Source of the DNA: Ianthella basta
Lineage: Eukaryota; Porifera; Demospongiae; Verongiida; Ianthellidae
Assembly (NCBI GenBank): GCA_964019415.1
Contig: OZ025879.1
Location: forward strand, 1,207,810-1,271,809
Reading direction: 5' to 3'
DNA: 64,000 bases
Made by a program: the position numbers and the translations under genes. Under the pieces are notes generated by a model that was given only the letters and a program-made list of their open reading frames with translations, was not told the DNA's origin and made no database searches. Positions 10,815 through 47,192 of the stretch are shown here, one piece after another. Every line of letters begins with the position of its first letter. Position 1 is the stretch's first letter.

Positions 10815-11434
10815 CTAGCTATGAACAACAGCATCATCACGGTATGTGATGATGTATGCTGGATAAGTCTGGTCGTTGTTGTGAACAACGTAGATGGTGC
10901 CATTGCCAAGTTGTCCCTGGATGCTGTCATAGGAGACTGCCAGTCCTCCTTCTTCCTGCGGCTTCGTCGGAGGAGAAGCTGTGTTGTACCTCCTGTATGA
11001 GATATCCCCCAGGGCAGCCTGGACAACCAGCATCTGGCAGTAGCCTTGTGCATCCACATGGCGGTAACCGTGAGACACAGTTGCATCTTTGGCGAGGTAG
11101 ACACCCTTACCGTATGCTCCCCGCTCACTCCTGATGACGTCGAGCCCTCTTGTACCACGAACTATGTCCTTGGGGTCATTTCTACTGGTGCCATGAAACA
11201 CGAGCTTCTCGTTGCAGTAGCCCAGTCGCTGTCTCATCAGTTTGCAAGCCGAAGTGTACTTCCTCCATAGGACCACATTCTGGATGCGGTCGATGCTGTA
11301 TATGCGCACATTTCGTGTGCCCATGGTGGCATTGAACAACTCAGCCACAACACCGTAGTCATAGCTGTCCTCGAGAGCTGGCACCTCCATAAACATGTTG
11401 TCCCCTTCATGTGGTAGCCATGTGGGAGGTAGAC
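10815..11434 (-). CDS. Gene A last exon: PARP catalytic domain
   Basis: This exon adds 206 residues after HEPN and ends the protein at TAG 10815-10817. Its acceptor (TACGTAG at 11441-11435) joins the giant exon donor in phase 1. The fold is an ADP-ribosyltransferase catalytic domain: VFHGTS carries the NAD-binding His (about residue 5026), YGKGVYLAKDA carries the Tyr (about 5058), and the position of PARP1 Glu988 is Ile (TIYVVHNN). An H-Y-I triad is known from mono-ADP-ribosylating PARPs such as the PARP10 type, so mono- rather than poly-ADP-ribosylation is expected. The QTYPAYIITY ending resembles the PARP7/11/12/14 group. Read alone it would look like a small separate PARP gene; in-phase splice sites and the same arrangement in gene B argue for fusion. 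Confidence 0.88.
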
Positions 11435-14400
11435 CTACGTATGTAGAATGCATGGTGAAGGCGTATCATCATCAATCTGTCATGGTCATACAAATTCAGG
11501 GTAGCTAAACCACTACTGCTGTGTATATGCAAACACATCATGCTTGCCATTGGAGTCACATATCAGCCTGCTGTGTGGTGCAAAGTGTACCTCATTGAAA
11601 GAGGTGAAAGCTCCCTTTGACTCTCTTACAGCCTCAAAGTGCATGTTAGTGATACCACAGGTGGACAGTGACAAAGAGCTACACTGTGAAGTCTATAGGC
11701 CACACATTAATGTGAGACAGTCTGGGTGTAAGGAAAATATGGTACAAGGTGGGTAGGCATGAATGCACCCATGACTAACTCGCTGGGTTCACTCAGGCTC
11801 ACCCCAACCAGCTACATGCAGTGCATGACAGCTACATATATTTTATATTGTATTTTTTGTTGGCAAAGATATACAAATGTAGTAGTGTGAACGATGTGTG
11901 CAGCTCACTGTTGGGGTCCATCTGCATTTCCGCTTCCATTGGCATGCTGTGGTCAATGGCATCAAACATCTGGGTCACTTCTTCCTTTGGCAATTCCCTC
12001 ACGGTCCGCAGGAATTTCTCAACAGCAGACACAGCTTCAATTGCCTCCTCAAAGTTGTGTCTGTATGCCTCTGCAGGGGCCATTTTGGGAATATTGTGCT
12101 CAGGGTAGCGGCAGCGTAGGAAGTGGCTGGACACCACAAGGACTTGGGGCATCAAGTCAACAGGAGGGTTGTGGAACCAGTGCTGGTTGTCTTGCAGCTC
12201 TTTGCACAGATCAGCTACATTGGTGTGCTCTGCAAGCCTTCTTCTCAGTCCAAACAGTGCAAGGAAGAGGGACTTCAGGCACTTCTCCATGCTCTCATGT
12301 GCCAGGAAGCACACCTGAGCAGGAAAGACCTGCACAAGCAGAGGGAGGCTCTCCTCATCCTGCTCTTCAAGCTTATGCTTTGAATCCTCCAGTAGCACCT
12401 TGGCCGCCTCATAATCATTGAGTGCCTGGATCAGCCACATCTTTGCATCCACTAGGTTAGGTTCTGGTGGTGGCTCAATGGCAGGAGGCTGCCAGACAGG
12501 AGCAGTGACACCTGTGTACCCATGGTAGCCACCTCCATATCCATGATGGTGGCTACCACCACCTCCATATCCATGATGGTGGCTAGCACTACCTCCATAT
12601 CCATGATGGTGCCTAGCACTACCTCCATATCCATGATGGTGCCTACCACCACCTCCATTCCATACAGATACAATGTGACCTGTGGGGAAATACCCGCCTC
12701 CACCCCCACCATACATAGGTGCTTGAGTTTGGACACTTGGCTGTGGTTCTTGGGAATAGCTGACTTCTAAAGGGATTGTCTCTGGAGGCAAGAATGCCTT
12801 TATTTCCTGTTTAACCCTCTGGAGGATACTGGGATCTCTCACTACATTCTTAAGTACCAGGAGGAGTTCATCTGTTGAGGTTTTGTATTTGTTGACACAG
12901 TGTTTCTTGGTGCAAAGGTAATGGAGATGGTGTACCAAACGTATTGATACATGCTGAAGTTGGGGCTGTGAGAATTTGGCCATCATTGCAGTATACAATT
13001 TTGTTAGCTCTTCTTTCAGTGTTATGCTGTTTTTCACAGCAAGAGGGAGCACTGACAGTGGTTGCAGGTTAACATCCGCTCCTCCTGTGGAGTGTGCCAC
13101 TTCCACTTGCCATTCACTGGCAATGTATGCTCTCTGTTGTGAGTACAAGTACTTGCTCATTACAAGAGGAGACATTACCATTTCTATAATCGATGGCACA
13201 GCTCCAGAATTGCTCAATTTTACACGTAGTCTACAGGTTTGGAGTTCATTTCGCCTTTCACTTGAAATACTAACTACCTGAGCATTGACAAGTTGCCCCT
13301 CTGCATTGCAAAACTTGACAATCTCTTCAACTCTGAATGTGCACACAATCACATTGTCCAGCTGGTCGGCATACTTGACTGCCTGACCTATCTTGGAAGG
13401 AGATGGCTGCTGCTCAGAACCATGCACATACATAGGTATACCAGCATTAGTCAGCACACCATCGATCAGGTGAGGACTACTACACATGAACATCTTGACA
13501 AGTAATCCATTATCCTTAATGATGCTTCCAAGGTATCGGTTCAGTCCACAGGCCAGCTGATAGAGTAGGTGGTAAGGATCGTAAAAGTCTGAGTGTGGAG
13601 CAATGTAGACTGTGGCGCCACTCTCTTCACCTTCCAACACAAGACAGAGGATAGACTCATTCTCAGAGTTGGGAATTTGGCAATTGTCCTTTTTGTACAG
13701 CAGAACAGTCTTGATAACTTGCACACACTTCACAGTCACCTCCCACAGTTTCCCTTTGATGCCCTCCACAGTTCTGTTTGATGGAGGTTGCTGGTTATCA
13801 TGTTTGACAATCCTGACAATACCCCTAAAGAAGTCACCTGAAGTTAGCATTTCAATTGCAGCTGTCACAAACTCACATCCGTGCTCCTTCCCTTCTGCTG
13901 CAGCTCTTCTTTCCTTTGTGCAGGCATTCTTGTCATGCAACATGTGGGGATGAGGGTGCTCTGCAATAATTGAGCTGAGCAGATGTACTCCAAGACAAGC
14001 AGGGAGGGAGTGATTGCCATTTTCATCCTTTGGAGGAGGCATTACCAGCTTAAATCCAGGTAGTGACTCTGCAGTGACTCTCTTACTGTATTGCTGCACA
14101 TCATCCAGGATTAACTGAGAGGCAGGCAGCAGTTGTTGATCTTTGGAGAGCAGAGGGATTACATCTGCTTCCAGACATTCCACGACAGCTTCTTCTAAAT
14201 TCGATTCAGACTTTCGAAGCAGGTTGACAAGGTTATTGTATGCTGCTGTTGCACACGATAGGCTGTTTGGATTGTTCTGAATACCCTCTTTGAATACATG
14301 TCTCAGAACAAAGAGGCAGTGGGATACTTCTAATCCATCAGCCACACCAGCCATCCGTAAGAAAACTGCCAGTGTCTGAAACTCTTCAGGAACTGGTTGA

Positions 14401-17400
14401 ATGAGTGGGAAAAACATTTCTTCCTGTTGCTCCATGTCCTTCAATCCTCTTGCCACGACCTGATGACCTGGAAGCAATTCAAATGTAGAGCAATCTTCAG
14501 TTTTGACCAAAATGCACTTTGCACCTTGCAGAATGGGCACAATCGTTTCCAAAGAAGAATGTGCAAGATTCAAGTATTCATAGTGTGATTGAAACAACTT
14601 GTGAAGTTCTCTGACTGTGCGTGATCCATTCTTAAAGGAAAGCTCCTTGCAATCCTTGAGCAAATGTGTCAACTCAACAAGGTTTCTGGCCACTATTGTG
14701 GGATACAATTCAAGGCTCCACACACCCAACAGCTTCAGGGCAATATCAGGGGGTGGGGGGTTGAAGCATCTAGGCAAGACTGGGCGATAGAGACAGGCAA
14801 GTTGGTAATCGGAGTCTTTTACCTGAAGGACACTATCACGCAAGGTAGTCCACCCTTGATGTGGCAGTTGAAAATCAGGAAGAGCCTGTTGCAGGGTCCC
14901 GCATGGTTCAGGTTTATTCTCGCAAGGTACAAACCTGATTACAGCTGCATTACACAAGAACTGTGTGAAGGTTTCGGGTGGAGTTCCATATTGCCAAACT
15001 GTCATCTTTGATGCCAGGTCTTCTAGCAAGAGTTTGCACTTCTGAGCACTGTCTTCACTCTGCACGTCGTCTGCAGTAACTGTTGCAAACTGTAGCCAAT
15101 GTTGCTCAGAAACCACACTGCAAAGTTCCATTTTCGCATTGAAAAAATCCAGCCACTTACTGCTGTCCCATGGTTGAGGTGGGAAACTGTCCTCAGGAAG
15201 GAAAGCCCTGAGTAGGGCATTCCGTGGATTATACAACTGTTTCACGCACTTTGGTCCACTACATGTTTCAATGAAAGGTATTTCAGCAAGGATACGAAAG
15301 ATACTACGCCACTGAACACTTGTACGTCTACTAATGTCTACTTCTGCTGTTACAGTAGACAAATAGTAGAGTTTCTCTACATGGTGATTCAGTAACTTTG
15401 GAGTATCCACTGTGGGTATGTGCTTAAAATTAGGCACCAATTCATTTAGATACAACTCCAGTATTTCCTGTGCAGAAGAGGCCATACACACTCCGACTCT
15501 TTCCATGAATTGAGCACAGTATGTTGGGATGATCACAAATGCTGTGTTGGTAACACGACTTATCAGAGCCAATCCGTCGTGTGGTATGTTGCTCACATTA
15601 TACGCTGTCACGAAAGAGTTAATAGTACTGAGCTCACCACTGACTAGCTTGAACAGAGGTAGACTTTGCATCCAGCGAATATTGCTTGTGTTCTCTCTGA
15701 CTTCTTCACTTCCCTCCAAGAAGCGAAGCAGCTCCTGAACGTCCACATCTTCTGGTGTGATATTACTCTGCAGAATGTCATCTTTGTACACATTGAGCAA
15801 GTGGATGATGTCATCAGGGTTTTCAGCTTTAGCAAAGTAAGGTGAAAATCTCTTGCACACTTGCAAGTCAATCTGGTTTGTGATAATACAGCTAAAATCC
15901 ACAGTTGGGAGACAGAACATGTTGATCAGTGCCTTACTGGATGCCTGGAACATAATGTTCTTATGCTCAGAAAAGGGAAAGAGCTTGCCATCTGTTGTTG
16001 GTACCACAGAAAATGAGTTGAACAAATGCCTCCAACTCTCATGAACTGCACTGAAAAACTTCCAGAAGAGTGCTAATGTCTGTTTGAATTCATTGCCTTC
16101 TGGCAAATTGATAGTACCATTGCAAGGAATAGCCAAGTGCTGAGCAACAAACTGTGGGTACTGCTCCAGTGGTTTGATGATACCTAACTTCTGTAGAGCT
16201 GCAAAAATATCAGATTTCTCAGAGATGCTCTCATGTACAAACTCACCCTTGCATTGAGGAAGAAGATCAGCATATTGATCCTCAAACACTTCACACATCA
16301 TCTTCAGTTCATCATCTTGTGTCAACATTAATGGTACACTTTCAAATAGCTCCTTCCACTGGACTGGTTGTTCTAGGCTTACATCCTTCAAACAGTAGGC
16401 TAAAAGGGATGCTATTGCTTCAACAACGGCAGCCTTGTATGCTGCAAGTCTTGGGCAAAGGGTCCTCAGGTGGTCTCTCAAGACTGCTGGGGTTATTCTT
16501 CCTGCATATGTCACCTTTGGATTGTTCCTCAGTTTTTCAAGTCCAGTTTCAACATTGGATGCTAATTGCAGGGGTGCAGCTGTTAGCTTTAATCCCAGCT
16601 TCAACAAGGTACTGTGCTTAACCTTACAGCGCTCATGATAGAACCACCCTTTGGCAGGCCCATCTTTGCTGGTGAGGGCTAACCACTGGGCACATGCTTC
16701 TTGTTGATCCTGCAGTGCAAGAAGTACTTTGGCACCATGGTCAAGAAGGAGGCAGTAGAGGTGTTCTGCTAGAAGAAAATCATTTGGAAAGCCAGCAGTG
16801 CTACATTCAGGAAACAGCTTGTAGTACCAGTCTTGTACAAACTCTCCTCTCTCTGTCCTCACATCTCTGCAATACAACAATAGCTCTGCATAGGCTTTGC
16901 AGATCACATCATTGCAAATAGACTTATTCCAGTCCTTCAGTGGGTGTTCAGAGTCACTGAACTGTAGCTCCCGCCTTGAATCATTTAGCCAGAAGTGACC
17001 ATTCACATGAACTGGCAAACATGATGACTTAGGAAGTGGAAGATAACAGAATACCTTACCTTCCTGAAGGTGATGTGCAAGCACGTCAACACTGTGTGGT
17101 GACGTTGGCCCTTTGGCTGCAACTCCACCTAAGGGCAGAAAGCTGTGCTTACATCCAGTTGCTAAAAGGTTGGTATCCATATCTCTACCTCCAAAACATT
17201 TACTGATAATCCAAGAGCTGAAAATTGCAGTTGAGGTCTGCTTGGTAAGGCTTCCACTGGAAATCTGTCTAGTGCTCAGTTGTATAGGGGTAACTTCAGT
17301 GTGGGAGAGCTCTGTCTGGATGCCACCAATTTGAAGTTGATAGACAGTCTGCACAGTTTGAAGAGTGGATGATTGGTTTTCCTTCAACTTTCTCTTCTCT

Positions 17401-26400: not shown

Positions 26401-29400
26401 AACTACACATGGTAAGGAAAGAAGGGGGAAGGAGAAAATGGCAGTGAACCCGACCAGCACCGGCAACCTTTAGCCAACCCTTTAGCAGCCGGGTCACTGG
26501 TCACCGCCAACAGCCACCGATCCATTCCCTCCTTAAATACCAATGTGGGCGGGCTCTATCCAGAGCCTCCTTTGAAACTCCCCCACCGGGCACTGACTAA
26601 TCAGTAATGCTCGGAAATGCTAATTTAAGATGGTCTATGTACCTTGGTGACACGAATGAAAGCCTTCCTTCCTTTTCCCTTCCCTCTTTCTTACCTTACC
26701 ATGTGTAGTTCTAAACGTTGTCTTTCATTTGTGTCACCATGGCACATAGACCATCTTAAAATAAGGAATCATAAATGAGTGGAATTTGCTCTGACGTACA
26801 ATTTGACAGTCGCATCAGAACATGCAGTCACCATGATGACAAAGGATGCTGCTATTTCGTGTTGAGTCCATCACTATTCCATACTGATGTTGATACAATA
26901 ATAATAATATCATTATACTTACACATGTATAAGCTCCATTTAAATTACTTACAATAAACACAGGCCCTATACACATAAGCATACCTGTGAGATGATGAAC
27001 AGACTGGAAGCCAAGTCCAAACCGGCCAACTTTCAGCAGCTCCTCCTCCTTCTGGCTCTGGTGCAACTTGCCAATGTTCTTCCAGTCAACCTCACTGAAG
27101 ACACTGTTGTTCCAGGCGAGCAGGGCTGGGCCCTGAAAGGGAGCGAGGGATGGCTTCCACAGCCCACCAGGGTCGCGAGGGTGTTGGCGGGAGTCAATGA
27201 TGAATTTGACCTGGCTGGCTCCAGCATCGTCGGCATTCTGAATGAGCTCCTGTGAGAGAGAAAAGAATGGAGTCGGCTCTGCAATGTTGCAGTGCGTTCA
27301 TGGAAAGAATTCTTTATTCCCTTGTCAGTGTAACGTACTTTCAGAATCTGTCCACCATCAGTGTACTGCTGGAGTAGGTTCTTAATAAAATCTGTCAGTG
27401 GAGCTCGTCTTGTGCCAAAAGCATCATCAGTCATTTCTGCAGTGATAGGATGAGTGACACAGAGGAGGAATACATGGTGCGGGAAGCTTGTGTTGTACAT
27501 TCCGAACATTATTTAAGTGGTGTTCTGTACTGTAACATTACAATAAAATAGGAGGGTCTGCTATAGCATGCATAGTGCAGCTGCCATTCATGTCAGAGTA
27601 GAAGAAGGTGGGGACACCAACAGTGCAGGTTGAGCATTTGCTGACCACCTAACGATATAGGTAACATACTCAGTTCTGGTATACCTTTCTCTTCTTCTTC
27701 ATGTGCATTCCTCAATTCTTGTTCAGTGCTTTCTGCCATTTTGTTTCCAAGAGTAGCCTGTACATTTAAAAGAATGAAATTCTCAGTTGTAGGCCAAATG
27801 TGTATGACTGACACATACACAGTGTTGTTTCATACAGTTGTCTAGTCTAGCTGCTATAGACTCTACTTTTCTTCTGCCTCATGCAAAATGATAAAGTAGG
27901 GACCAGCACCTAGACCGGCTGTTGACCTGTTCCCACAAATATCCAATATACTTGTTACCATGGTAATCATGAGCTGAGAAATGTCATATCACCTAAGAGC
28001 CTAAGGCTGGTAGTTTGACCTGTGCGATATTATCAATATCGCACAGGTCAAATTCTCATATCGCACAGGTCAACGGAGAGAGCACCAGCTGTCAATAAAA
28101 GATAGCTGCTATGTAAACGAGATCTAGACTTAACAGAGTCTTTGATGACCATCATCAAAGAAAGCTGAAGCTGCCCATGAAGACATGCAATACATGTCAT
28201 CGAGCAATAGAGAATAGGTGAACATAGAAAGGGCATCAAGCAGATGCATCAAAACAAGGACTAATGAGTATACACATGCTTGGAATACTGCAGACTCATA
28301 GGCCGTCCGCTATTCAATAGGGCCTCGCACTGCACGGACAGTCTGGGATCAAGCCTTGAAGGACAAAATTAATGCAAACCTAGGAAAACTGAGACCCTGT
28401 ACCATTCCTGTGCTTCAAGTAACGGAACGACAAGTCTTGTGCAGCCGTTCCTGAATCTCTGCACACCTAGTGGGGCTGAAAACCTTCTCTATATATTTGC
28501 TGCAAAACAATGACCTGCAATGAGTTGTTTGTAATCTTCCATGAGCCTTCCTTCAGTCGGCATGAGCTGCATGCACGGTACCATTATCTTCCCCATGGCA
28601 GCTTGTCGGTATATCAGAGCAGGAACGCTGGAACTCTCGTCGAAGAGGCCACACAGTGGCACAACACAAGCAAAGAAAGTTGACGCTAAAGAACTCCAGC
28701 CGTGTATTCTTGCCAATGGAGGAAGAGCGCTTATTTAAGTGACATGCAGGGCATATAGACCTCTTAGTGTGCGATACGATGCATATACAGCACTTGCCCT
28801 CAGGTGCAAAGTCGGGGCTCAAGCTGTATATGCATCGTATCGCACACCAAGTGGTCCATAACTATTACTTGTTACATGAGGAAGCCATACATCAAAGCAA
28901 GCTGCAGTGTGCTAATTTTGGATAATGCCACTGTTTACGTTTTCACACCTCATAACACACTGTGTCGAATGGGGCTCATATTTGCTAACCCATACAGTTC
29001 CTAGCCTTAAACGTACATTTTGTTTACTGCTTTAGCAAAATGCCTCTGATATTCATCACCTTGCAGGGCCGTAGCACCAAGATATAAACCGGTCAAGCCA
29101 TAGATGATGTGACGCAAACTAGGGGGGCTGGGGCATGCCCCCCCAGGAAACTTTTTGAAATTTAGATGTTCTGTGAGTACTTTTGGAGCAATTCTAGGCC
29201 CATCAACACTTCAATGAGTATGATAAAATGTAACATAGACCAACAGGCACTTACAGCAGGAAAGGCGATCAAGTGCCATGTAACAGGTAATACAATGCAC
29301 TGAAATAAGAAGAATGCGCATTAAAATTTGAAATCTAGTGGTTTTTTGGCTTTCTCTCTGATGCTAGGCAGCACAAATCTCTCCTACCCTTGAATAGAAG

Positions 29401-32400: not shown

Positions 32401-35400
32401 TCGTCAAAAGCTCCGAACCGTGATTAAAAGATCCCTTCTACTTCTAATTCAGCTTTGAAGACCGTCTTCCTCCACAAAAAAGCGTTTTCCAAACCCTTCA
32501 TGCAGCACCCTGCCACGGCCACAACCAAAACTGCTGACTATGCATTATTTTGAATTCTGTTCCCTGTAATCTCATTGGTCAACGTGCTGCCAAAAGGCGC
32601 GCAGTATTCTCATTGGTCAGCCCGTAGCCCATTGTGATGTCACGGAGGTGTCTACTGAATGGAATGGTACCCTTACCTGTTGCAGTGACGTAAGGCAGGC
32701 GCTTACCGAATGCAAATGGCGTCGTCTCGGGAGAGGTCCGATCTCGATATTGCTGTAGAAGGTTCGTTTCTGTTGCGCACTCACCATACAATATATTATA
32801 TATAGTACGGTAGGTCGGTCCATAGCCTCTATATATGACCTCGACACTCATATTTACCTCGGCGCTTCGCGCCTCGGTAAGTATGTAAGCACCTCGGTCG
32901 TATATATCAGCTATGGACCTCCCTACCGTACTATATATATTACATATATACAGTGCAAGTTGCAATATATATATATATATATTAAAGGTGGGCGGTATTG
33001 ACTTTTTTCAATACTGAATAACTATTCCCACCAATACCTTGGTATTACTAAAAACTGACTAAATGGGCTAATTAGACTTCATTGATTGACTGAATCTGTT
33101 TTTGAAAGTGTTTCAACTGTTCTCTTGCAATCAATCATCAATCAATCAATCATACACAGCTTTGTCTCCAATGCTGGAGGTCGCTGGAATTATTTTCTAA
33201 CAGTTCTGTGCAAGAAATAGTTCACATCATGCTGTACTAAATAGTTCAATAATTAACTGTTCAATTTACTTTCAGATCATCAGCCCATCTTTTCCTTGGT
33301 CTTCCTCTCGGTCGCTTCCCGGGCACATTCTCCATATACACCTTCTTTACCATCCTGTCATCTGTCATTTCTTCCATCTTCTTTAACCATTCTGTCTTCT
33401 TGTTCTCTACTCTTAATACCACTGCCACCTGTCCCAGTCTTGATCTAATATCAACATTCCTCACTTTGTCCAACATAGTCACTCCTTCCACTCTCCTCAG
33501 GCATCTCATTTCAAAGGCTTGTATTCTGCTCTTGTGTCTCTCTAGCAGGGTCCAGGTCTCACATGCATACAACAGAGTTGGCATCACCGTGGCATTGATC
33601 ACTCTAAGTTTTGTTGCCTTGCTCAGTTCTCTTCGATCAATTATCTCTTTTCTCATAGCTCCAATCACTTTGGATGCTGCTCCTATTCTGTGGTCTACCT
33701 CTGCTTCACATGATCCCTCTTCATCTAACATGGCTCCTAGATACTTCATTGTCTTCGCATTTTCTATCTCCACTCCATTTACTGTAATGTTGCATGTGCC
33801 TCCTCCTCTCTTCACCACCATTACCTTTGTCTTTCCCCAATTGATTGTCATTCTCCATTTCATCATCACTTCATCCAGCACCTTCACATTTCTTTCTGCA
33901 TCCTCATCTCTTTCTGTCACTAACATTAGGTCATCGGCAAACAAGAGAAGCTGTATTGTGCCTGCTTCCATTTCAACTCCTCCTTCAAACCTCTGTTTTG
34001 CCTCCCTCACAATGTTGTCCATAAAGATGTTAAATAGCCATGTTCTCTTGCAGAAAGCATTAATTTGCAAACCAGCATTGCTCAAAATACTCACAAAGTT
34101 AGGATACCTCCGGATATTGTATTGCAAAATCCATATAATTTATTGCGAATGAAAACACGGCCAAATACAAGTGAAGCTCAGATTTGAAGCAGACTTATTT
34201 ACCAAGTTGATGGATGCCAGTATGAAAATATTAGTTACAAATGTAGCTCATACCAAGTAATACCAAAAAGCATTGGTATCTCAGTATCCATATACAACAT
34301 ACCAATAATATTCGGTATCCAGTAAACAACACCGAAGTTAACTATATACCATATTTGTCCATATAGAGGCCGGGTCCCGAATAGTGGCCGGCGTCGCAAT
34401 CGACACGGAATGCCTCTCGATCCATGCTTTTGTGCTCCTTAGCAACTGCAAGTCGCTTGTCACACTTCACAGTTGCCAAGGATCATCAGAGTTGCAAGAG
34501 TGATGTCTAAGAGAAAGTCGTACAATGTCTCCTTCAAGTTGAAAGCCGTTGAGTGCGCAGAGAAGACGACCAAAGAATCCACTGCCACCTTATACACGTG
34601 GTGGCCTCTAACAATGCTCTCTTTCACGACAGAACTAGTCGCGTGCGAATCTTGACTTGCAGTCATTCTCCCCCATGCGCGGAGACACAATACTATACAC
34701 CACTGATTTTATATTGGAAACAAGGCCAAGTATTAAGAAAACAAGTATTTCGAGTTAAAAAACTCGTGGGGCGCCGGGGCGCCCTTGAACTCGAACTACT
34801 TGCTAACAACTTCCCTGTGTATGTTCAATAGTTCAGACAGTTGGGCATGCAGCATTGCTGCTGGTGTGAAAGATACATCACAATGCCATAGACTGGGGTT
34901 GCAAAGGTTTCAAGTCTCCAGACCAGGAAGTCATCCAGTGAAAGCACCCCTACCAAACTGTCAAAATGCTTTGCTGACACTTTTTAATTTACATAACATT
35001 CTGAATGTGCCTGGAGGAGGAGTGTGCTGGCTAAAAAGGCCACCCTAACTGGTAATGACATGATTGGATTTGTCTCCCATTGGCCAACGCACAGGAGAAT
35101 AGTTAGATAAGCTTTCTACTACAATACTATTACTTAAACATGTTCTAGAAAGACTACGCGTTCCTTGGATACACGGCGAAATACGAAGAAAGATGATTAT
35201 GAGCCTAGCAAACAGAGAGCGTCGAGCGCGGCCATTTTACAATGTCCGTCAGTGATAATTGGAGCTGTATCTCGCAGAAGAGTCTTTCGTTAGGCTTTTT
35301 ACGAGTATCACTCTATCAGCACATGTTCTTGAACACATTTCGTTCGATTAAGATACAGTGAAACGCCATTAGAGATGATTTTAAGGTTTGTAAAGATTGA

Positions 35401-38400: not shown

Positions 38401-41400
38401 GAGTGAGAGCAATTGAATAAAAAAACACCCTTGAATGAGAAGATGAGAAAGGAGTGAAAATGGAGTGCGTGATGGGTAGAAATACTGCTACTACTGTTAC
38501 AGACAATGGCAAAAAAAATCCTGCCAATGCGCCGAGGGAGCACGAGGCAAGTGCTGCGCATGCGCAGAGCCCTGCGACATAGTCTGACGTGCCTCACGTG
38601 CGCAACGCACCTAGCCATGACGTATATACTGGCGAAGCTCCCGAGTTACGCCGATAACTACGTTCAACCAGGGTTAAACTACATTCAGTAGACGCCTCCG
38701 TGACGTCACAACAGGCTTCAGGGCTGACCAATTAGAATACTGCGCGCCTATTGGCAGTATGCTGACCAATGAGATTACCGAATTCAAAATAATGCACAGT
38801 CAGCAGTTTTGGTTGTGGCCGTGACAGGATGCTGGACAGAGAGTCCTGAAAATGCTTCTTTTCTGGCATAACACCGACTTCGATGCGGACTCAGAACTAG
38901 AGGGGACAATTTTAACCACATTTGAGAGCTTTCGACGATATCCAGCTGGACTTTGTGTTCGTCATCTGAAGAAGTCGCTCAACGGACTGTGTCTGCGCGT
39001 CTTCCACGCCATAGTTTCGCGCAACAGAGCCGGACTCAGTGCTCGGTTCCTAGAATACGTCCCTCTACGCATGTATCTTGTCCAACTGACTTTCCTTCGT
39101 GCGACGATTTTTAGCGGTCGCATTTTTTCTTGGAGCGTCAAGATCCTCCGCAGCACTGATTGTCATGGCCACAGTGAAATGGTAAGACTGCTTCGCTTGA
39201 CAGTACACACATTTGGCTCTGGTTTCATTACATTCCTTCTTGATATCAGACCTGTTGCGCAATCAGAGCTTTGATATTGTGATATCAGACCTCTTTTCAG
39301 GTCTATATCACATATATAGGACCACCTGCCAATGCTTAAATCCCTATAGTTGTGCAATCACCATACTATATATTGCGATATATACACAATATTGCAATAC
39401 AAAAGCAGTGTTCTTCCTGTCACGATATTGGCCTAATCTCTGCTGCGATGCTGACCAACTGACCTTTCTTTTTGAAAAACCTGAGTAACAGCTGGAAAGC
39501 CATGTATGCATGTACCTCACCTGTTTGCATTAATGCTTGCTGTATTAATCTATGTGTTTGGCTTATATCTGGCACCGTGCCAATTGTTCATTAATATATA
39601 TCGGGATACACAATATATCGTGATACAAACCTACAATAACCGTGATACATATTTTCCTGTATCGTGGCAACACTACTATCTGCTTGGTCTTACAGTATAC
39701 CTACAGTACTAATGTCTAATTTTACATATTTTGAGTTCTTTTAATGTGTCCACTGTTTGAAGAAATCTTACTGTTGCAGTTATTCGTCTACTTCCATACT
39801 CTTAATGTCATTTAGGAATTCTCACCTCACTAGATTTCCCGCTGAATACATCAAGCTGGAACTTGTCAAAGACCTTCACACTGGTCACTTGCAAATTTTG
39901 CAATTCCTTCAAGTGTTCCTTTAATTCATGCTCTGTGGTGCCAACATCTTCCATGGCAATGTAGAAGAGGAGTTTGACACTGCCTTTCTCCCACCCAGCA
40001 AATAGGGCTGTATCAAGGCCAATCCGATACATGAGGAAACTCTTCATTTGCAGAATACGGTGCAAAGAATAGCTGTGGGGATCCACGTTCACAGCGATAG
40101 ACATGAGCATACACCTGGGAGGGGGCTCAGGCTTGATACTTCTCTCTCTGCATTGTTGTAAGGTCGTTACCACTTTTGCCTGAACATTTTCTTCATACCT
40201 ACTCATCAATTTCTGCAGTCTTTCATCTGCAAGATACTTTACTACTAACTGGGCAAACTCAAAGTTGAGGAAGTCCCAATACTTAAGTAAGGCACTCATC
40301 AATTCATCTGCCGTACTAGGAAGGGATCCTTGGCCTGTTGGATCCTTTGACTTCAATTTTATTTCAATGCATGACTTCAGTGCACTAAGACCGTTAATAT
40401 TAAGCCTGTGAACTGCTGCATCAATTTCAGCAACCAGCAAAGAAAACTCATCTGAAAGATCATCAATGATGGGGAACTGTATCTGCCATTGAAAGTCAGG
40501 TCCACTGGGGGTTAGCCCTACAGGGAGAATAACCATAACCATGCAAGTATAATATTCTTACTGCATGCTTAGCTTACATTTCATACAACAAATAAATGAA
40601 TTAGAGCTCTTTATACTAGGTTGTAGCTATTTTGCATACAGATTCAATTATATATGCGCACACACAAGCAATATTACACTCTAAATCATAGAAAAAACAA
40701 AACAAGAATGCGACGAAGATAAGGAAACTCATTAATAATACTTCTGAAGGGGTTTCATATCATTGTCTTTTAGAATAAAATGGGATAACAACACACAATA
40801 GTACAATAGTATTAGCTAAATCCCCACATTCAGACTAGTTTGTCTAGATGCAGTCACAACTGTCTGGCATTGATGTCTGACGCACAGGCACTAACTTATT
40901 GAAGCTCATTGTGTATAATAATGTATTATAATTATATATATACTTGCATTATATATATCACCATCCCACCATTGCAATCAATTAATTTAAACCTAGTGTA
41001 TAAAAAATTCGTTTAGAACTAAAAGGGATTTAGGAATGGCCAGCAGAAAAAGCATAGAAACAAGCAACAGTAACTCAACACCATAATGAACCACATTGCC
41101 ATGAAGTTCGCTATGCATTCCTAATTTCTAGTACAGCTACATGGGCCCAAATGTCTAGCTAGCTAGTCCCATGTAGCTACGAGAAAATTAGGAATGCATA
41201 GCAAACTTCACGGCAATGTGGTTATCATGGTGTTGAGTTACTGTTGCTTCTAGGTGCCTTGCTTGCATGCTGTCTTGTCCCACTGAACAATAACCCAGGT
41301 GTTTGCCCCATTGGGGTTGGGGAGGTGGCCTGACGTATTGTCTGCAAAGCTGTAATAAGAGTAGTGAGAAAGGCATCATGATGGCAACTGGCCCACTGCG

Positions 41401-44400
41401 GGCGTGTTCAGGTAGTGGGAGTGGCTGTGAGGTGGCTGTTCATGCCATGAGGGAGGTGTTTGACGAACCTGAAGTTGAAGGTACTCTGTTGTCAATACCA
41501 CAAATGCTTTTAATGCTTTGAACCGAAAGGTGGCCCTCCAGAACATGAAATATGTTTGTCTTGCTCTTGAAATTGTGTTGACAAACTGCTACCAATCACC
41601 AATAAGATTGCTTGTGTCTGGTGGAGCAGAGTTTCTTTCGAAAGAAGGAACAATACAAGGAGAACCTCTAGGTATGGCAATGTTTGCGCTTTCCAATGTT
41701 TCCCTCATACTCAAGCTAATGGCGTGTGTCGAACGGTCTATCAGGCTTGGTTTGCAGATGATGCCACTGTAGCAGCATCCTGTGAATGACTAAAACAGTG
41801 GTGGGATGCACTGTCAACCTTCAGGGCCCACTTTAGATACTCTCCAAATGCCAGTAAGACCATACTTGTTGTGAAGGATGAGCATGAACAGATAGCCAAA
41901 TCCTTATTTTCGGACACTGGCATCACAATCACCACCCATGGCAAGAGGCACCTGGGTGCAGCTATAGGTTTGAGTGCCATTGTAGAAGAATATGTACGTG
42001 GGAAAGCTGATGAATAGATGGAGAAAGCGAAGAAGTTAGCCATTATTGCCGTCAGTCAGCCCCAAGCTGTGCATGCAGCTTTTGTGCATGGAAGTAGGAG
42101 CAAATGGACTTACCTCCTTAGAACCATTCCACAGTGTGGTCCCTACCTTCAGCCCCTGGAGGATGTCATCCACCAAAAGTTAATTCCTGCACTGACTGGA
42201 TAATCACCTTGCTCAGAAATGGAAAGAGCACTACTGGCCCTCCCGGCAAGACTGGGGGGATGGGTCCGATGAACCTGGTCACAGTGTGTGTCTACGAGTA
42301 TGAGGCATCTAAACTGGTAACAGCAAAGGCAAATTCCTACAAATTCCATCATTGCACAGGAAAGCACCTTCACAATGGACCCTATGGCAAAAAATCCAGC
42401 CAAGGCTGCAGTGACAAAGGCAAAGAGTGAAAGGCAACCAGAAGAGGTGAAGAAAGTATATGACCAGCTGCAATCAGCAGCGCGTAAATTGCTTGACTGT
42501 GCTAGCAAGACAGATGCCTCATCATGGGTTTCCACCCTGCTCATCAAAGAGCATGGTTTCTGCCTCAGCAAGGGTGTATTTAGGGATGCCATCAGTTTGC
42601 ATTACAGCTAGAATGTACAGAATGTGAGTTCAACATGTCCATGTGGTACTCCATTCTGAGTTGATCATGCAATGTCATGCCACAGGGGTTGTCTACCTAC
42701 CCTACGTCACAATGAGATCCAGACCTAGTGGCAGAGCTGCTGAGGGAAGTGTGCCACAACTGTAATAACTTGGTTGCAGTCGATGAACAAGTCGCAACAA
42801 CTTCTCCGCACTCAAACTCAAATCAATAAACAACAGCAGTTACACACAGTCCACAAGCACTCTATAATAACAAAAGTTCCGGAACATGCCAGCTTAGTAC
42901 ACAACTAAGCAATTACAGATCCACGCAGAAAGACAATTACATAGCAAGCACACTGAATATAACAGCTACAAGGCAAGCACACTACATGTGAAACATAAAG
43001 GCAAACATATGACATTGCAATGCAAATACATCAAGTACACAACAATGAGCCTAGGCTGCAACCTCTAGATGGTGAACATAGACTTAGCAGCCCTGTACAG
43101 AATGCACGAAGGAATGAAGAAGCGAGAGTATGGTGAAAGAGTGAGGGAAGTTGAACGAGGAGTGTTTACCCCCCTATTGTCCTGTCAACTACAGGGGTAT
43201 GGCAAGAGAGTGCACTATCTTATTCAAAAGGGTTGCTGATGCCATCGCAGAGAGAAGAAAACTCCACTACTCTCAGGTAATGGGTTGGCTTCAATGTAGG
43301 ACCTCATTCGCTTTAAATTAATCAGATCTGCAATCATGGAGCCATCAGAGGCTTCAGATTGAAAAGATCATGTGATTTTGCCAGCAACATCCCCTTGCCT
43401 CTTCTGAGAGCAAGGTGGGCTATTAATGACTCTGCTATGTGTAAATTTTAAAACATCACGACCTGATCTGTTATTCTGTCCTTTTTAAATGAAACACTTT
43501 CAATGCATGCGTTACATATATTAGGAAAAAATAAAAGCTGTGACTAACGTGTTGCCAGTGAGTAGCTGACGCATCGTATCTGCTTCCAACCTAGAGAAAA
43601 CATCTCCAGAAGGATGACCAAGCCTTGCTGAGACTTGAAAGCACTTGATGTTTTCTTGACTATAGTTGGGAGTCACTAATTACTTCCAGAAGACGTGAGA
43701 TGGCGTAAGGCATGCAGAAACCTGCCAGAACTTGTCCAATCATTTGGATAACACTTAAATGCCAACCAATTGGTGTGAAGATTTGCATCTTAGACTGGCT
43801 CACTAGACTATCCCATCTAAATGCCGGGCGATTAGGGCTGGGAAAGAACGGTTTAGTGGCAGTAACGATTAGTTCACACCTTTTTGCCCAATCAGATGTG
43901 TTTGGCAGGAATTCATGCTAATAGTATTCATTGGTTGAGGAGCTTCTGTTACACAAGAGTGGGTCTTCACGCTGTGGCTGTGCTCTGGCTTTGGTGATTG
44001 ACAAGGGCTCGAAGCTCATCTATCCCTCACTCTATTCCTCCACTTCCTCTCTTGGATCACTTTCTCATAGGAGATTGACCGAACGACACGGGTACAGTTG
44101 CAATGAGCCACTCACCCATGTAGAAATTGAGAAGAATGCACCAGCAATGGTATCACGCAACGTGCGCTTCCTTGCTTCATGTTCTGAATGCTAGAACACT
44201 GATACATAGCAAGCGAGACAAAGGCTACCTTCTTCCTTGTTCGGATTTTCCCCTCTAGAGTCAGCCTATCAGTCTTCACCAACCTGTACTTTTGTTCTAG
44301 TGGTTGGCAGCAGCAACTGCAAAAGCGTTTGTACTGTACCATCTCGCCCAATGTATGGTTTGGCCCAATTGCGCAGATTTACCATAGGGTATTGCTTATG

Positions 44401-45473
44401 AATTGCACAATACAATAGGTGTGAGCTTGATAATGCGAAGGTGTGAACATCACTCCACTTCATTCTGGGTTTTCCTTGAGGGTGCTTTCCTGGAACCCCA
44501 TCATCATACACTATCTTCATCACTCTACCGCTGCTCATCTCCTCTAATCTTTGCTTCCACTTCTGCTGCCATCTATTTACCAGATCCAAAACTCCCTCCT
44601 GCCTCACTCTGCCCCTAAGATCCATGTTTCTTATTCTATTTAGCCTTGACACCCTCCTCTATCCATCTTAACACTAGCTCTCATTTGCATAGCTTGCATT
44701 CTTCGCTTATGTCTTGCTTCACACCCTTGCTTCACGCCCATAAGTCAATGTGGGAATCACCATAGCATTCACCACCCTCAATTTTGTCCCCTTTGTCAAT
44801 TCCTCCCTTCCCAGCGCTGTGCTTCCAATGGCCCAACCATCCTTGACGCTATTCCTACTCTCTGCTCCACCTCACTGTCCATACTCCCACCACTAGTGAT
44901 CATTGTCCCAAGGTACTTCATCTCCTTTACTTGTTCCACTCTCTCACCCTAAACTTTGACATTACACACCTCATGCTCTTCCAACCCTCATAACCCTCGT
45001 CTTTTGCCAGTTGCTTTCATTCCCCATTCATCCAAACTATCAGTGGAATTCCAGTATAATAAATTACTGATACTGACACTGATACAGAAAGGCACACACA
45101 AAATACGCAGACTTAAATTAGTCCACGGCACGGCTCAGTTAGCTAGTTTATATAGGTATGTGGCAATCCAATACATTTACCCCGAAAATATACCTTTTCC
45201 TTTCAGCTTGCTTTTCCAGTGGCCGTAGCCATTCGTCTCCAAAGTGTCACAAAAGCGATCAAATGTCCTCTCCTCTTTAGTGAGTAGAATCTCGATCAAC
45301 ACGTCAATGCCATCAACGTTACTGGGTTTGTCGTTAACACGCGAGTACTCGATCTCTGTTAGCAGTGGGCGCAGTGCTGGCAAAAGGTTAGCAATAATTA
45401 TGCCAGTTCTCAACTCGTTATGATGCCCTCTCAGGGAAACTTTCCACGCAGGGTCTCCTACCCTTTCTGCCAT
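10815..45473 (-). CDS. Giant gene A: CARD - sacsin repeats x3 - HEPN - PARP fusion (7 exons)
   Basis: My model joins minus-strand exons 45194-45473 (CARD), 39826-40517 (unassigned), 27670-27757 (acidic linker), 27339-27436, 26985-27249 (first GHKL core), 11909-25321 (giant exon) and 10815-11434 (PARP). The sum is 15,456 bases, 5,151 aa plus stop. Every junction is GT/AG and phases agree (1, 0, 1, 0, 1, 1). Known parts: CARDs recruit partners by homotypic binding; sacsin repeats are GHKL ATPase modules of a cytoplasmic co-chaperone; HEPN domains bind nucleotides or cut RNA; PARP domains transfer ADP-ribose. Unlike human sacsin I see no N-terminal ubiquitin-like domain and no DnaJ motif; CARD and PARP take the two ends. 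ATG 45473 follows an in-frame TAG nine bases upstream and has A at -3 and G at +4. A role as immune or stress sensor is inference. The least certain joins are the two long 5' introns, 4.7 and 12.1 kb. Confidence 0.8.
11435..11908. other. Last intron of gene A
   Basis: 474 bases between the giant exon donor (GTGAGC at 11908) and the PARP exon acceptor. No repeat or coding signal was recognised. The reading frame of the giant exon runs on about 75 bases into it before a stop, so an unspliced message would give a sacsin-like protein without PARP. Confidence 0.75.
11909..25321 (-). CDS. Gene A giant exon: sacsin repeats and HEPN
   Basis: A single open exon of 13,413 bases (about 4,470 codons) with no in-frame stop. 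It begins at acceptor TTGTAG, completing the first GHKL domain (IASGNHVGLMDPHE, the partner of SGD-type motifs in sacsin). The second GHKL repeat starts near 21,400, with N-box KELIQNADDAGAT and G2 box GRFGVGF. The third starts near 18,250, with KEFVQNADDAGAS and GRFGIGF. All three keep the Asn of the N-box and the Gly-rich box, so ATP binding looks possible. Each is followed by a long sacsin-type linker, e.g. SCFLPLPIETSLNFVVNAFFD. A Gly/His/Tyr repeat lies at about 12,500-12,690, then HEPN from about 12,465 to 12,000 (VDAKMWLIQALNDYEAAK, then RCRYPEHN). Human SACS likewise puts most of its coding sequence in one very large exon. Confidence 0.93.
12528..12660 (-). repeat. 30-bp coding minisatellite (HHHGYGG repeats)
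   Basis: Four near-perfect copies of a 30-base unit encode ten-residue blocks HHHGYGG plus S/G, A/G and R/S, followed by YHGYTG. It lies between the third sacsin repeat and HEPN of gene A. The matching linker of gene B (about 47,980-48,130) is Gly-rich but has no HHHGYGG repeats, so the two linkers have diverged completely. Confidence 0.9.
25322..26984. other. Gene A intron before the giant exon
   Basis: 1.66 kb intron. It holds a short piece (about 25,500-25,570) that shares GAGGCCGGG and AATAGAAGC words with the ends of the pogo-like element further up, a direct duplication of CCAGAATTCAACTTGTGGTAG (two copies, about 25,959-26,000), and a foldback element (separate entry). No coding sequence. 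Confidence 0.7.
26373..26775. mobile_element. Foldback/MITE-like element
   Basis: The left end reads GAATCATAAATGAAAGACAACG and continues to ACTACACATGGTAAGG; inverted counterparts (CCTTACCATGTGTAGT, GTTGTCTTTCAT) lie at about 26,695-26,731. Around it GAATCATAAATGA occurs again at about 26,766, and the GATGGTCTATGT/ACATAGACCATC pair forms a second inverted match. This looks like a non-autonomous hairpin element about 0.4 kb long. Confidence 0.65.
26985..27249 (-). CDS. Gene A exon 5: core of first GHKL ATPase
   Basis: 265-bp exon carrying the ATP-binding core of sacsin repeat 1: N-box ELIQNADDAGAS, the FQGPALLAWNN strand, and the G2 box VGRFGLGFQSVHHLT. It starts in phase 0 after acceptor CTCTCACAG and ends in phase 1 at ACAG/GTATGC, joining the giant exon as HHLTDLPMIASG. 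Skipping it would shift the frame. It is almost identical to the gene B exon at 63083-63347. Confidence 0.93.
27339..27436 (-). CDS. Gene A exon 4: entry helix of sacsin repeat 1
   Basis: 98-bp exon encoding a segment like MTDDAFGTRRAPLTDFIKN ending in YTDGGQILK. This is the conserved lead-in to the sacsin N-box (human sacsin has a similar [22 protein letters not shown]-type segment). Phase 1 in, phase 0 out. The equivalent gene B exon is 63431-63528, with the same length and phases. Confidence 0.9.
27670..27757 (-). CDS. Gene A exon 3: acidic linker
   Basis: 88-bp exon, phase 0 in and 1 out, encoding ATLGNKMAESTEQELRNA followed by HEEEEKGIPEL. It has a good acceptor (AAATGTACAG) and donor (GTATGT). 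It contains an in-frame ATG (MAEST), so a promoter inside the 12-kb intron could in principle start a shorter protein lacking CARD. No homologous domain recognised. Confidence 0.75.
28018..28076. repeat. Short perfect palindrome
   Basis: GACCTGTGCGATATTATC is followed directly by its inverted complement and then by a further partial copy (ATCGCACAGGTC). This is a hairpin-forming remnant of a foldback element. Confidence 0.8.
28768..28852. repeat. Foldback hairpin
   Basis: GTGTGCGATACGATGCATAT and its inverted complement flank a short loop; the arms are about 30 bases with few mismatches. MITE-like. Confidence 0.8.
29440..29520. repeat. Short tandem repeat with GGTCCATGCAA
   Basis: Three spaced copies of GGTCCATGCAA(A) with G-rich spacers. 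No function is evident. Confidence 0.7.
29763..29932. mobile_element. Foldback/MITE-like element
   Basis: Arms of about 40 bases (TGTACAGCGGATTTATGCAA... and its inverted complement ending at 29,932) plus an inner inverted pair (TAGGATACGAAC / GTATCCTAGG) around a central AT-rich loop. Typical of a non-autonomous hairpin DNA transposon. Confidence 0.8.
30628..30735. mobile_element. Foldback element, family 1 copy a
   Basis: Arms AATGCTGACCAAGAGGTGTC... and its inverted complement ending at GCATTTAA, with inner GATTTAGA / TCTAAATC pairs. A related copy lies at about 31,430-31,572 (GTTAAATGGCGACAATAAGG). Confidence 0.75.
30998..31435. mobile_element. Nested inverted repeats
   Basis: An outer pair (GAACGAACTGGT/ACCAGTTCGTTTC words and a GTTGCTTTACCCTGTTTC / GAAACAGGGTAAAGCAAC pair) at about 30,998-31,077 and 31,338-31,435 surrounds a smaller hairpin (GAGATTTAGGGATCGCGAAA to TTTTCGCAATCTC) at about 31,238-31,332. 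Probably one foldback inserted into another. Confidence 0.7.
31430..31572. mobile_element. Foldback element, family 1 copy b
   Basis: Arms near TTAAATGGCGACAATAAGGT and ACCAATTGGTCGCCATTTA with a GCGCGAAGCGCCC hairpin in the middle; diverged relative of the element at 30,628-30,735. Confidence 0.7.
31847..32938 (+). mobile_element. TIR DNA element, left copy, with adjoining hairpin
   Basis: Ends read TATAGTATGGTGATTGCGCAAC at about 31,847 and GTTGCGCACTCACCATAC at about 32,772, an imperfect 22-base terminal inverted repeat in a TATA-rich target. A hairpin (ATATAGTACGGTAGG and its complement, 32,800-32,938) abuts the second end. The interior matches, in inverted orientation, the copy at 37,797-39,370. 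I see no intact transposase, so it is a non-autonomous or eroded DNA transposon. Confidence 0.8.
32976..33260. other. Unassigned sequence with short TCAA repeat
   Basis: AT-rich sequence with a (TCAA)n-like tract at about 33,132-33,150. It borders the LINE fragment and may be part of its 3' end. Confidence 0.4.
33261..34127 (-). mobile_element. LINE (non-LTR retrotransposon) reverse-transcriptase fragment
   Basis: An 867-base open frame encodes the C-terminal part of a LINE reverse transcriptase. It has the catalytic LLLFADDLMLV, then TINWGKTKVMVV, TMKYLGAML, ASKVIGAM, LLYACETWTL and the basic end RPRGRPRKRWADDL. The N-terminal RT motifs and endonuclease are missing, so the copy is 5' truncated. 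The long open frame suggests a fairly young insertion. A related, far more decayed fragment sits at 44,260-45,050. Confidence 0.88.
35476..35508. repeat. (TAATA)n microsatellite
   Basis: About six copies of the five-base unit inside the pogo-like element. Confidence 0.9.
35735..36075. repeat. Three diverged tandem copies, about 120 bp each
   Basis: Each copy holds a version of TTAGCAGGATTTCTTAATTAG followed by TCNCAAAATGG, preceded by a GTGGACA-like word. They lie inside the pogo-like element. Confidence 0.75.
36467..37203. repeat. Long palindrome with 75-bp internal repeats
   Basis: Centre near 36,747: GCATGCCATTGAATT and its complement face each other across a loop of about 18 bases. The left arm (36,467-36,737) and right arm (36,756-37,203) contain inverted copies of a 75-base unit with CTGGTGGTCTTTTTCTATGA and GTAACTTGCA. 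The right arm has about two more units than the left. It lies inside the pogo-like element. Confidence 0.88.
37797..39370 (-). mobile_element. TIR DNA element, right copy (inverted), carrying an insertion
   Basis: Inverted partner of the element at 31,847-32,938: the same hairpin (37,797-37,911), the same inner end (TATAGTATGGTGAGTGCGCAAC at about 37,917) and the same outer end (GTGCAATCACCATACTATA at about 39,370). Relative to the left copy it carries about 0.6 kb of extra sequence, roughly 38,055-38,680. No intact transposase. Confidence 0.8.
39826..40517 (-). CDS. Gene A exon 2: unassigned helical domain
   Basis: A 692-bp exon, phase 1 in and 0 out, encodes about 230 residues (94-324 of the model) after the CARD. 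The acceptor is TTCTCCCTGTAG and the donor GAG/GTGAGA. The predicted protein is Leu-rich and helical, with segments such as LLKYWDFLNFEFAQLVVKYL and LMSRYEENVQAKVV, then a second half with SYSLHRILQMKSFL and LDTALFAGWEKGSVKLLFYI. I do not recognise a named domain. Its lack of internal stops, correct splice sites and matching phase on both sides support it as a genuine exon. It may be a linker or effector-binding module specific to this family. Confidence 0.78.
41066..41250. mobile_element. Foldback/MITE-like element
   Basis: Arms of about 85 bases (AACAGTAACTCAACACCAT... with GCTATGCATTCCTAATTT) and their inverted complement ending GTTGAGTTACTGTTGCTTC, around a CTAGCTAGCTAG-rich loop. Confidence 0.85.
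41290..43440 (+). mobile_element. Broken reverse-transcriptase element, family unresolved
   Basis: A fossil retroelement. SKEGTIQGEPLGMAM resembles the RT motif of a retroelement group common in invertebrate genomes, and YLLRTIPQCGPYLQPLED and AERRKLHYSQVMGWL-type segments downstream resemble the C-terminal part of the same proteins. It is broken in several places and seems interrupted between about 42,730 and 43,190. I cannot place it in a named family from sequence alone. Confidence 0.7.
44260..45050 (-). mobile_element. Decayed LINE 3' fragment
   Basis: The minus strand encodes SRLNRIRNMDLRGRVRQEG... and VPGKHPQGKPRMKWSD, clearly related to the C-terminus of the LINE at 33,261-34,127 (VPGKRPRGRPRKRW). 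Upstream remnants to about 45,050 are eroded by stops and frameshifts. It lies close to the CARD exon and is older than the other copy. Confidence 0.75.
45194..45473 (-). CDS. Gene A exon 1: CARD domain
   Basis: This exon encodes the first 93 residues, starting MAERVGDPAWKVSLRGHH. The pattern fits a caspase-recruitment domain: helix 1 with ELRTGI, then LLPALRPLLTEIEYSRVND, the turn with NVDGIDVLIEILLTKEERTF, and the signature DRFCDTLETNGYGHW. CARDs nucleate immune and cell-death complexes by self-association. The exon ends AAAG/GTATAT in phase 1, matching the acceptor at 40,517. An in-frame TAG just upstream of the ATG fixes the start. If it is not spliced to the giant exon, it would belong to a small CARD gene ending at the exon at 39,826-40,517. 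Confidence 0.88.
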
Positions 45474-46569: not shown

Positions 46570-47192
46570 TCAGTTATTCAGCTTGTAGACTATCTGATAA
46601 GCTGGGTAGGTCATATCATTGCGAGGTACAATGTAAATGGGACAACCATTAAGCCTCCCTTCAATGCTGTCGTAAGACTTTGTGACTCCGCCTTCCTGCT
46701 GTGGCATTTCAGGAGGACCATGGCCACGGAGTTGACTTGGATTCAGGCAAACGTATGTTTCTCCAAGCACCACTCTAGCAACCAGCAAGTAGAACATGCT
46801 CCCTCGGCAGTGCACATACCCTTGGTGAGACAGGGAGGCATCTTTGGCAAAGTAGATTCCTCTTCCGTACAGGCCCTGGGCACTCTGGACTACATCAAAG
46901 CTCTTCTGCCCACTGTAGATTGTCTTGGGGTCAACTGAGCCTGTTCCATGAAACACATTCTCTTCACGACAATATCCACCCTGCCTTTCTAGGATAGCAT
47001 TTCGGCGATTGATAAAGTCTCTCCATAAGTAGACATTTTGAATCCTTTCGATGTTGAAAATGGTCACATTGCAAACCCCCATGCTGCTGAGGAACAGCTC
47101 TTCCATGCTGTTGTACTCTGGGGAGCCTAACTTTAGGGGAACTACCTTCAGCTTTTCATCATCTATAAAGGGAAGCCAATCATCAGGGAATT
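46570..47192 (-). CDS. Gene B last exon: PARP catalytic domain
   Basis: 207 codons including stop. The acceptor is TTTTCCTCAG at 47,193 and phase 1 joins the giant exon donor C/GTGAGT at 47,401, giving LDPAQFPDDWLPF. Motifs are VFHGTG (NAD His), YGRGIYFAKDASLS (Tyr) and PIYIVPRND with Ile at the Glu988 position, the same H-Y-I triad as gene A. The VFHGT and AKDA cores are conserved while the rest is about half identical to A, which suggests selection for catalysis. Confidence 0.88.

Follow-up and report, generated by a model that had tools for sequence, protein, structure and literature searches.

A sponge gene that probably joins a CARD, DED-like and TRADD-N-like unit to sacsin repeats, HEPN and a PARP catalytic domain

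Sacsin carries a DnaJ domain and, in vertebrates, a ubiquitin-like domain as well. The human protein, whose layout is taken here partly from general knowledge and partly from sections of Anantharaman et al. (2013; PMC3710099), shares three sacsin repeats and a C-terminal HEPN domain with the sponge gene described below, whereas the latter gave no Pfam match to a ubiquitin-like or DnaJ domain at E 0.1 in the exons scanned and has a PARP domain added; an earlier reading made from the DNA letters alone (the sequence-only reading) saw the ends of sacsin replaced by CARD and PARP. Among the closest described systems are the sacsin-like proteins of the sponge Amphimedon that are fused to DEATH domains (PMC3710099). 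They resemble the present case in uniting a death-fold adaptor, sacsin and HEPN in a sponge, but carry DEATH instead of CARD-DED-TRADD-N, and the main text of that paper does not contain the word PARP. The same source, in the sections drawn on here, calls the role of the sacsin HEPN "enigmatic" and offers only guesses as to why some sacsins bear death-fold domains.

Another example is the Death-like-TRADD-N proteins, in which a constant N-terminal unit is followed by variable C-termini, caspase among them, in Amphimedon (Kaur et al., 2021; PMC8195603). In the parts of that study used here, sacsin is one of the fusion partners found in the DEDD2 clade of TRADD-N domains, oyster DED-TRADD-N proteins have C-terminal PARP14-like ART domains, cnidarian TRADD-N domains occur with macro, PARP and HEPN, and DEDD2-clade fusions are linked to retrotransposons. 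The likeness to our gene lies in the constant N-terminal unit with a swappable C-terminus; the difference is that sacsin, HEPN and PARP are not given together behind the unit in those parts (PMC8195603). The C-terminal combination itself is on public record: a 5,363-aa protein of Oopsacas minuta (Hexactinellida), named Poly [ADP-ribose] polymerase in UniRef, combines sacsin repeats with a HEPN-like region and a C-terminal PARP, and its tail is collinear with the HEPN and PARP of our gene (25% identity, E 6e-21). Pfam finds its PARP at E 2.6e-18 and its HEPN at E 0.21, under the cut-off, and a profile of the HEPN region built from the array described below matches it at E 8e-6 in a one-sequence search. 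Unlike our gene, this record begins at the first sacsin repeat, without an N-terminal adaptor. The supposition that the architecture as such was undescribed is thus too strong, because PMC8195603, PMC3710099 (in the parts considered) and the Oopsacas minuta record cover parts of it: death-fold sacsins and Death-like-TRADD-N units with PARP are published, and a sacsin-HEPN-PARP record is public. The full order CARD-DED-TRADD-N-sacsin-HEPN-PARP was not found in the literature searched, for which supplementary architecture tables may hold it, nor, supplementary files aside, was any discussion of a sacsin-PARP fusion.

The window analysed here is a 64,000-nucleotide stretch of Ianthella basta DNA, positions 1207810-1271809 of contig C12 in a 209-Mb, 96-contig assembly. 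Its minus strand holds two adjacent giant frames, each with a PARP exon next downstream. The gene of interest is quite probably a single seven-exon gene encoding, in order, CARD, DED-like and TRADD-N-like domains, a linker exon, three sacsin repeats, HEPN and PARP. Joined, its exons give 15,456 nt, or 5,151 aa plus stop, without an internal stop; the open frame, the consistent phases and the six GT-AG introns bear out the seven-exon, 5,151-residue model of the sequence-only reading, and the profile searches that it proposed, run with Pfam, matched CARD, SACS, HEPN and PARP. Exon 1 (45473-45194; all exons are on the minus strand) contains the start codon and the CARD (PF00619, E 7.3e-6, 26.4 bits against a Pfam cut-off of 23.9), and its frame continues into exon 2 (40517-39826). 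A frame that by eye resembles the reverse-transcriptase fragment described below lies at 44272-44658 in the intervening intron. Exon 2, previously left as an unassigned domain, most likely encodes a DED and then, tentatively, a TRADD-N-like domain of RRM/ferredoxin-like type: its predicted fold is a DED-like part followed by beta-alpha-beta-beta-alpha-beta with a G-S turn, and it is on this fold and turn that we tentatively base the TRADD-N assignment, since a comparison with Pfam families returned neither TRADD-N nor any other family. Exon 3 (27757-27670; 88 nt) serves as a linker and belongs to the CARD-DED-TRADD-N module. The intron before it (39826/27757, about 12 kb) contains a minus-strand reverse-transcriptase fragment (33264-34139; RVT_1, E 2.3e-14), which is in keeping with the link between DEDD2-clade TRADD-N fusions and retrotransposons in the sections of PMC8195603 used here, although it is no proof of it.

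Relatives of this N-terminal unit occur elsewhere in the genome. CARD exons lie near relatives of exon 2 on C5 (two places), C19, C2, C7 and at C3:1.07 Mb, and a short exon resembling exon 3 follows further on at four of the seven other exon-2 loci examined. This exon measures 88 nt on C2 and C7 and 61 nt at C3:5.71 Mb, in each case with an acceptor AG and a donor GTATGTTA that match those of exon 3 in the window; at C5:9.91 Mb the 88 equivalent nucleotides run straight on into a Pfam-recognised caspase exon. At the other three loci (C5:9.05 Mb, C19 and C3:0.80 Mb) no such exon was recognised. A CARD precedes the exon-2 relative on C2, on C7 and at C5:9.91 Mb; none was found at C3:5.71 Mb despite the exon-3-like exon there. 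Downstream of its exon-2 relative, C2 has a blastn match to exon 3 (E 4.8e-4), and exon 3 with its flanks matches C2 at E 5.2e-6 and C7 at 0.038 in tblastn. A profile of the four loci, run against both strands of the window, has exon 3 as its best match (E 6.7e-7; next 0.011), an E-value that is optimistic because the loci were picked by likeness to exon 3 or to each other. The donor of exon 3 at position 27670, where the sequence-only reading placed it, is kept at other loci, its splice sites look conserved, and exon 4, the first sacsin exon, lies 233 bp away in matching phase. The CARD unit therefore probably reads into the sacsin gene, and the 39826/27757 intron, like the CARD-to-sacsin join, is likely on grounds of homology and phase. 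Their lack in the other copies had suggested that CARD and exon 2 are a gene of their own inserted into the array; this was dropped as the leading view, since exon 3 resembles exons of related genes at other loci. Behind related exons 2 and 3, the C-terminus would accordingly vary between loci: caspase at C5:9.91 Mb and, if exons 3 and 4 are spliced, sacsin-HEPN-PARP here. Neither caspase nor sacsin, the only domains sought, was matched in the 8-kb stretches downstream on C2 and C7, and genes of this sort may therefore be able to stop without either type of effector. More broadly, CARD, Death and NACHT exons are numerous in the genome among the candidates scored in each family scan.

The sacsin part begins with exon 4 (27436-27339), which encodes the start of repeat 1 and is conserved in the array copies, and exon 5 (27249-26985), which carries the ATPase core of this repeat (SACS, E 5.8e-33) and shares 93-98% identity with its counterparts in the seven remaining copies of the array. 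The giant exon 6 (25321-11909) completes this repeat and adds the second and third repeats and HEPN (SACS, E 1.3e-155; HEPN PF05168, E 2.2e-7, 31.5 bits against a cut-off of 22). Three N-box (NADDA) motifs occur in the joined protein together with three GRFGxGF motifs, and in the exons scanned Pfam reports, besides PARP, only CARD, SACS, HEPN and a weak HATPase_c_3. The HEPN domain may be non-catalytic. The window copy has an R-x5-H string, RCRYPEH, as a candidate for the active-site R-x4-6-H motif of HEPN ribonucleases; the neighbouring array copy c2 has Y for H. A tandem repeat at 12522-12663 encodes a linker rich in Gly, His and Tyr that separates HEPN from the sacsin repeats.

Exon 7 (11434-10815) encodes the PARP catalytic domain (PF00644, E 1.4e-18). 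Its nearest solved catalytic domains are those of the mono-ADP-ribosyltransferases PARP14, PARP12 and PARP15 (PDB PARP14, E 7.8e-19), here attached to sacsin-HEPN. FHGT and YGKGVYLA align with PARP14 and supply the H and Y of the triad, the third residue being I as read from the alignment; FHGT and YG(K/R)G(V/I)Y(L/F)A are present in all eight array copies. The domain is a putative transferase of the mono-ART type. Its join to sacsin-HEPN is well supported by comparison between copies: 8/8 retain a GTGAG donor and an AG acceptor with a varying length in between, both sides of the junction are in phase 1 (worked out manually for the window gene and c2, the other copies having the same columns), and 16 of the 16 sacsin genes found in the assembly are followed by a PARP exon on their own strand (genes counted by the second sacsin exon, PARP places paired by hand). 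Moreover, the type of the PARP exon equals the type of the giant-exon C-terminus in every one of the eight copies, a shared two-type split that is expected of one gene. Exons 6 and 7 are under purifying selection. For exon 6, dN/dS of the window copy against copies of the same type is 0.29-0.37, and over the giant exon it is 0.28-0.37 per half and within-type pair; for PARP it is 0.10-0.20 against four same-type copies and 0.10-0.32 over 13 within-type pairs, the 15 between-type pairs yielding no ratio because dS is saturated. In no window along the giant exon is there a sign of diversifying selection, and the idea of a sensor gains no support from this.

The gene is one of an array of eight on C12, at about 1,157,000-1,371,000. 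Only c0 is encoded on the plus strand; the other seven, numbered from c1 (the window gene) to c7, are on the minus strand. Every copy has a pair of small sacsin exons, one giant exon and one PARP exon. Within the window, c2 is represented, on the minus strand throughout, by its first two sacsin exons (63526-63431 and 63347-63084, coding matches), a giant-exon open frame (47303-60709, the exon itself beginning near 60649) with sacsin repeats, HEPN and a type II C-terminal half, and a type II PARP exon (46570-47192; E 1.6e-12; acceptor kept, start placed by hand). An intron of c2 contains two near-identical 366-bp tandem copies (60931-61667), and a 450-aa Ser-rich open frame without a Pfam match at E 0.01 lies at 6435-7784 on the minus strand. 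As far as residue 1,740 or so of the giant exon, c1 is 64-94% identical to each of the seven other copies (150-column windows); beyond it, identity to c1 is 62-98% in c3-c6 (type I) and 17-75%, mostly 32-50%, in c0, c2 and c7 (type II). Over C12:1160274-1366744, the break near this residue is sharp, and the two diverged types of the HEPN/PARP side are interleaved along the array, a pattern that suggests gene conversion or module exchange. A second group of seven sacsin genes occupies about 2.46-2.64 Mb, one of them split across two frames (1,595 and 2,751 aa), and a further gene is at about 3.27-3.30 Mb; the latter, a lone gene at C12:3266773-3298856, has an 8,367-aa open frame and a PARP exon downstream. 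TGA occurs inside two PARP matches (1351577 and 2641769), and the PARP of c7 is nonetheless open from the usual exon start. Just past the array, C12:1373982-1378753 (plus strand) contains frames with two DEDs and a caspase, two DEDs alone, and a caspase, i.e., death-fold effector genes adjoining the sacsin array.

The copies differ at their 5' ends. No CARD was found upstream of c2-c7 with tblastn using two CARDs together with the frame list (for c7, within the region fetched). Exon 4 carries an ATG at its start in every array copy except c6, where the loss was read by eye; five of the six copies in which no CARD was found have this ATG, which implies that the sacsin part can begin independently. 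In c0 there is a CARD-like exon that includes an ATG, with a linker frame, in phase by hand, within 1.1 kb of exon 4. Since this exon scores under the Pfam cut-offs (CARD_2, E 0.017; CARD, E 0.029), the call rests on its likeness to the other CARD exons of this genome. It is another kind of CARD than that of the window gene as judged by sequence ranking: with the c0 CARD as query, the window CARD comes 67th of 150 matches, and with the window CARD as query, the c0 CARD comes 71st of 132, while five CARDs near exon-2 relatives (two on C5 and one each on C7, C2 and C19) come 5th-18th. This cross-ranking indicates that CARD was probably gained twice in the array. As for non-coding likeness, a block close to exon 4 is common to c2, c5 and c7; it reaches the exon in c5 and c7, and the match of c2 stops 153 bp short of it (c5/c7 coordinates); c4 has only the portion beyond 780 bp, and c1 shares only about 170 bp, located 2.3-2.5 kb upstream, with c2 and c3. 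At a threshold of at least 80 bp and E 1e-5, the near block is absent from c1, c3, c6 and c0, and as it is missing from the latter three too, its absence in c1 is no proof of a changed promoter.

How the two ends are attached can be read in other ways. The window gene could be two neighbours, a CARD-DED-TRADD-N-linker gene that terminates by itself and a sacsin-HEPN-PARP gene starting at the exon 4 ATG. Such an arrangement would suit the extra stretch in which the CARD unit lies, the PARP-to-PARP spacing being 35.8 kb here against 18.8-20.4 kb in the other five minus-strand intervals, as well as the lack of a detected CARD at c2-c7 and the existence of exon 1 and exon 2 relatives at loci without sacsin; the 5' block of c2, c5 and c7 is missing here, but also from c3, c6 and c0. 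The short, phase-matched distance from exon 3 to exon 4, with splice sites that look conserved, and the in-phase CARD-like exon so close to the sacsin part of c0 speak against it, and we regard two genes as unlikely, though worth keeping in mind. A split at the other end, with sacsin-HEPN and PARP as separate genes juxtaposed by duplication of the array, is highly improbable: although PARP sits on its own exon and its frame in the window has an ATG six codons before the acceptor, the order is kept at 16/16 loci, donor and acceptor in 8/8 copies, and in Oopsacas minuta the parts form a single protein.

It is also conceivable that the exons are joined as proposed and yet the new 5' half does nothing, the CARD-bearing copy being a recent chimera that drifts or is expressed as noise. 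Transposon remains in the long intron and the restriction of this exact 5' end to one array copy fit such a history, but all exons are open and dN/dS, obtained for exons 6 and 7 only, is low (0.29-0.37 and 0.10-0.20, respectively); a functionless 5' half is, on balance, decidedly unlikely.

In the preferred reading of one joined gene, a CARD-DED-TRADD-N unit that elsewhere precedes caspase would have been placed before one member of a sacsin-HEPN-PARP array. The sacsin repeats would bind ATP and serve as a sensing or chaperone switch, and TRADD-N could act as a latch between the N-terminal adaptors and the remainder, following the model of Kaur et al. as set out in the parts of PMC8195603 used here. 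Upon activation, CARD and DED would cluster with other death-fold proteins, and PARP would mono-ADP-ribosylate local targets as the output, with HEPN perhaps binding RNA. Joint transcription, the order of activation, the substrates and any immune role are what we infer from this layout. The receptor-like interpretation of the sequence-only reading thus stands as regards layout, in that a death-fold N-terminus, sacsin ATPase modules and an enzymatic C-terminus fit it. Extended to the array, it would define a sponge receptor class in which the sacsin ATPase array is the sensor and PARP a built-in effector, with NLR-like logic, chaperone ATPases replacing NACHT, and an N-terminal adaptor and a C-terminal half swapped as modules within a tandem array. 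This is a tentative proposal that we consider possible rather than probable; the adaptor states that it comprises are none found, CARD-like plus linker, and CARD-DED-TRADD-N, and the C-terminal half is of two deeply split types.

The window gene links death-fold sacsins, TRADD-N units with exchangeable C-termini and immune-type PARP14-like enzymes. Fusion to an enzyme whose product, ADP-ribosylation, can be assayed would make it possible to ask which processes a sacsin ATPase array turns on; the array copies with and without a CARD offer natural controls.
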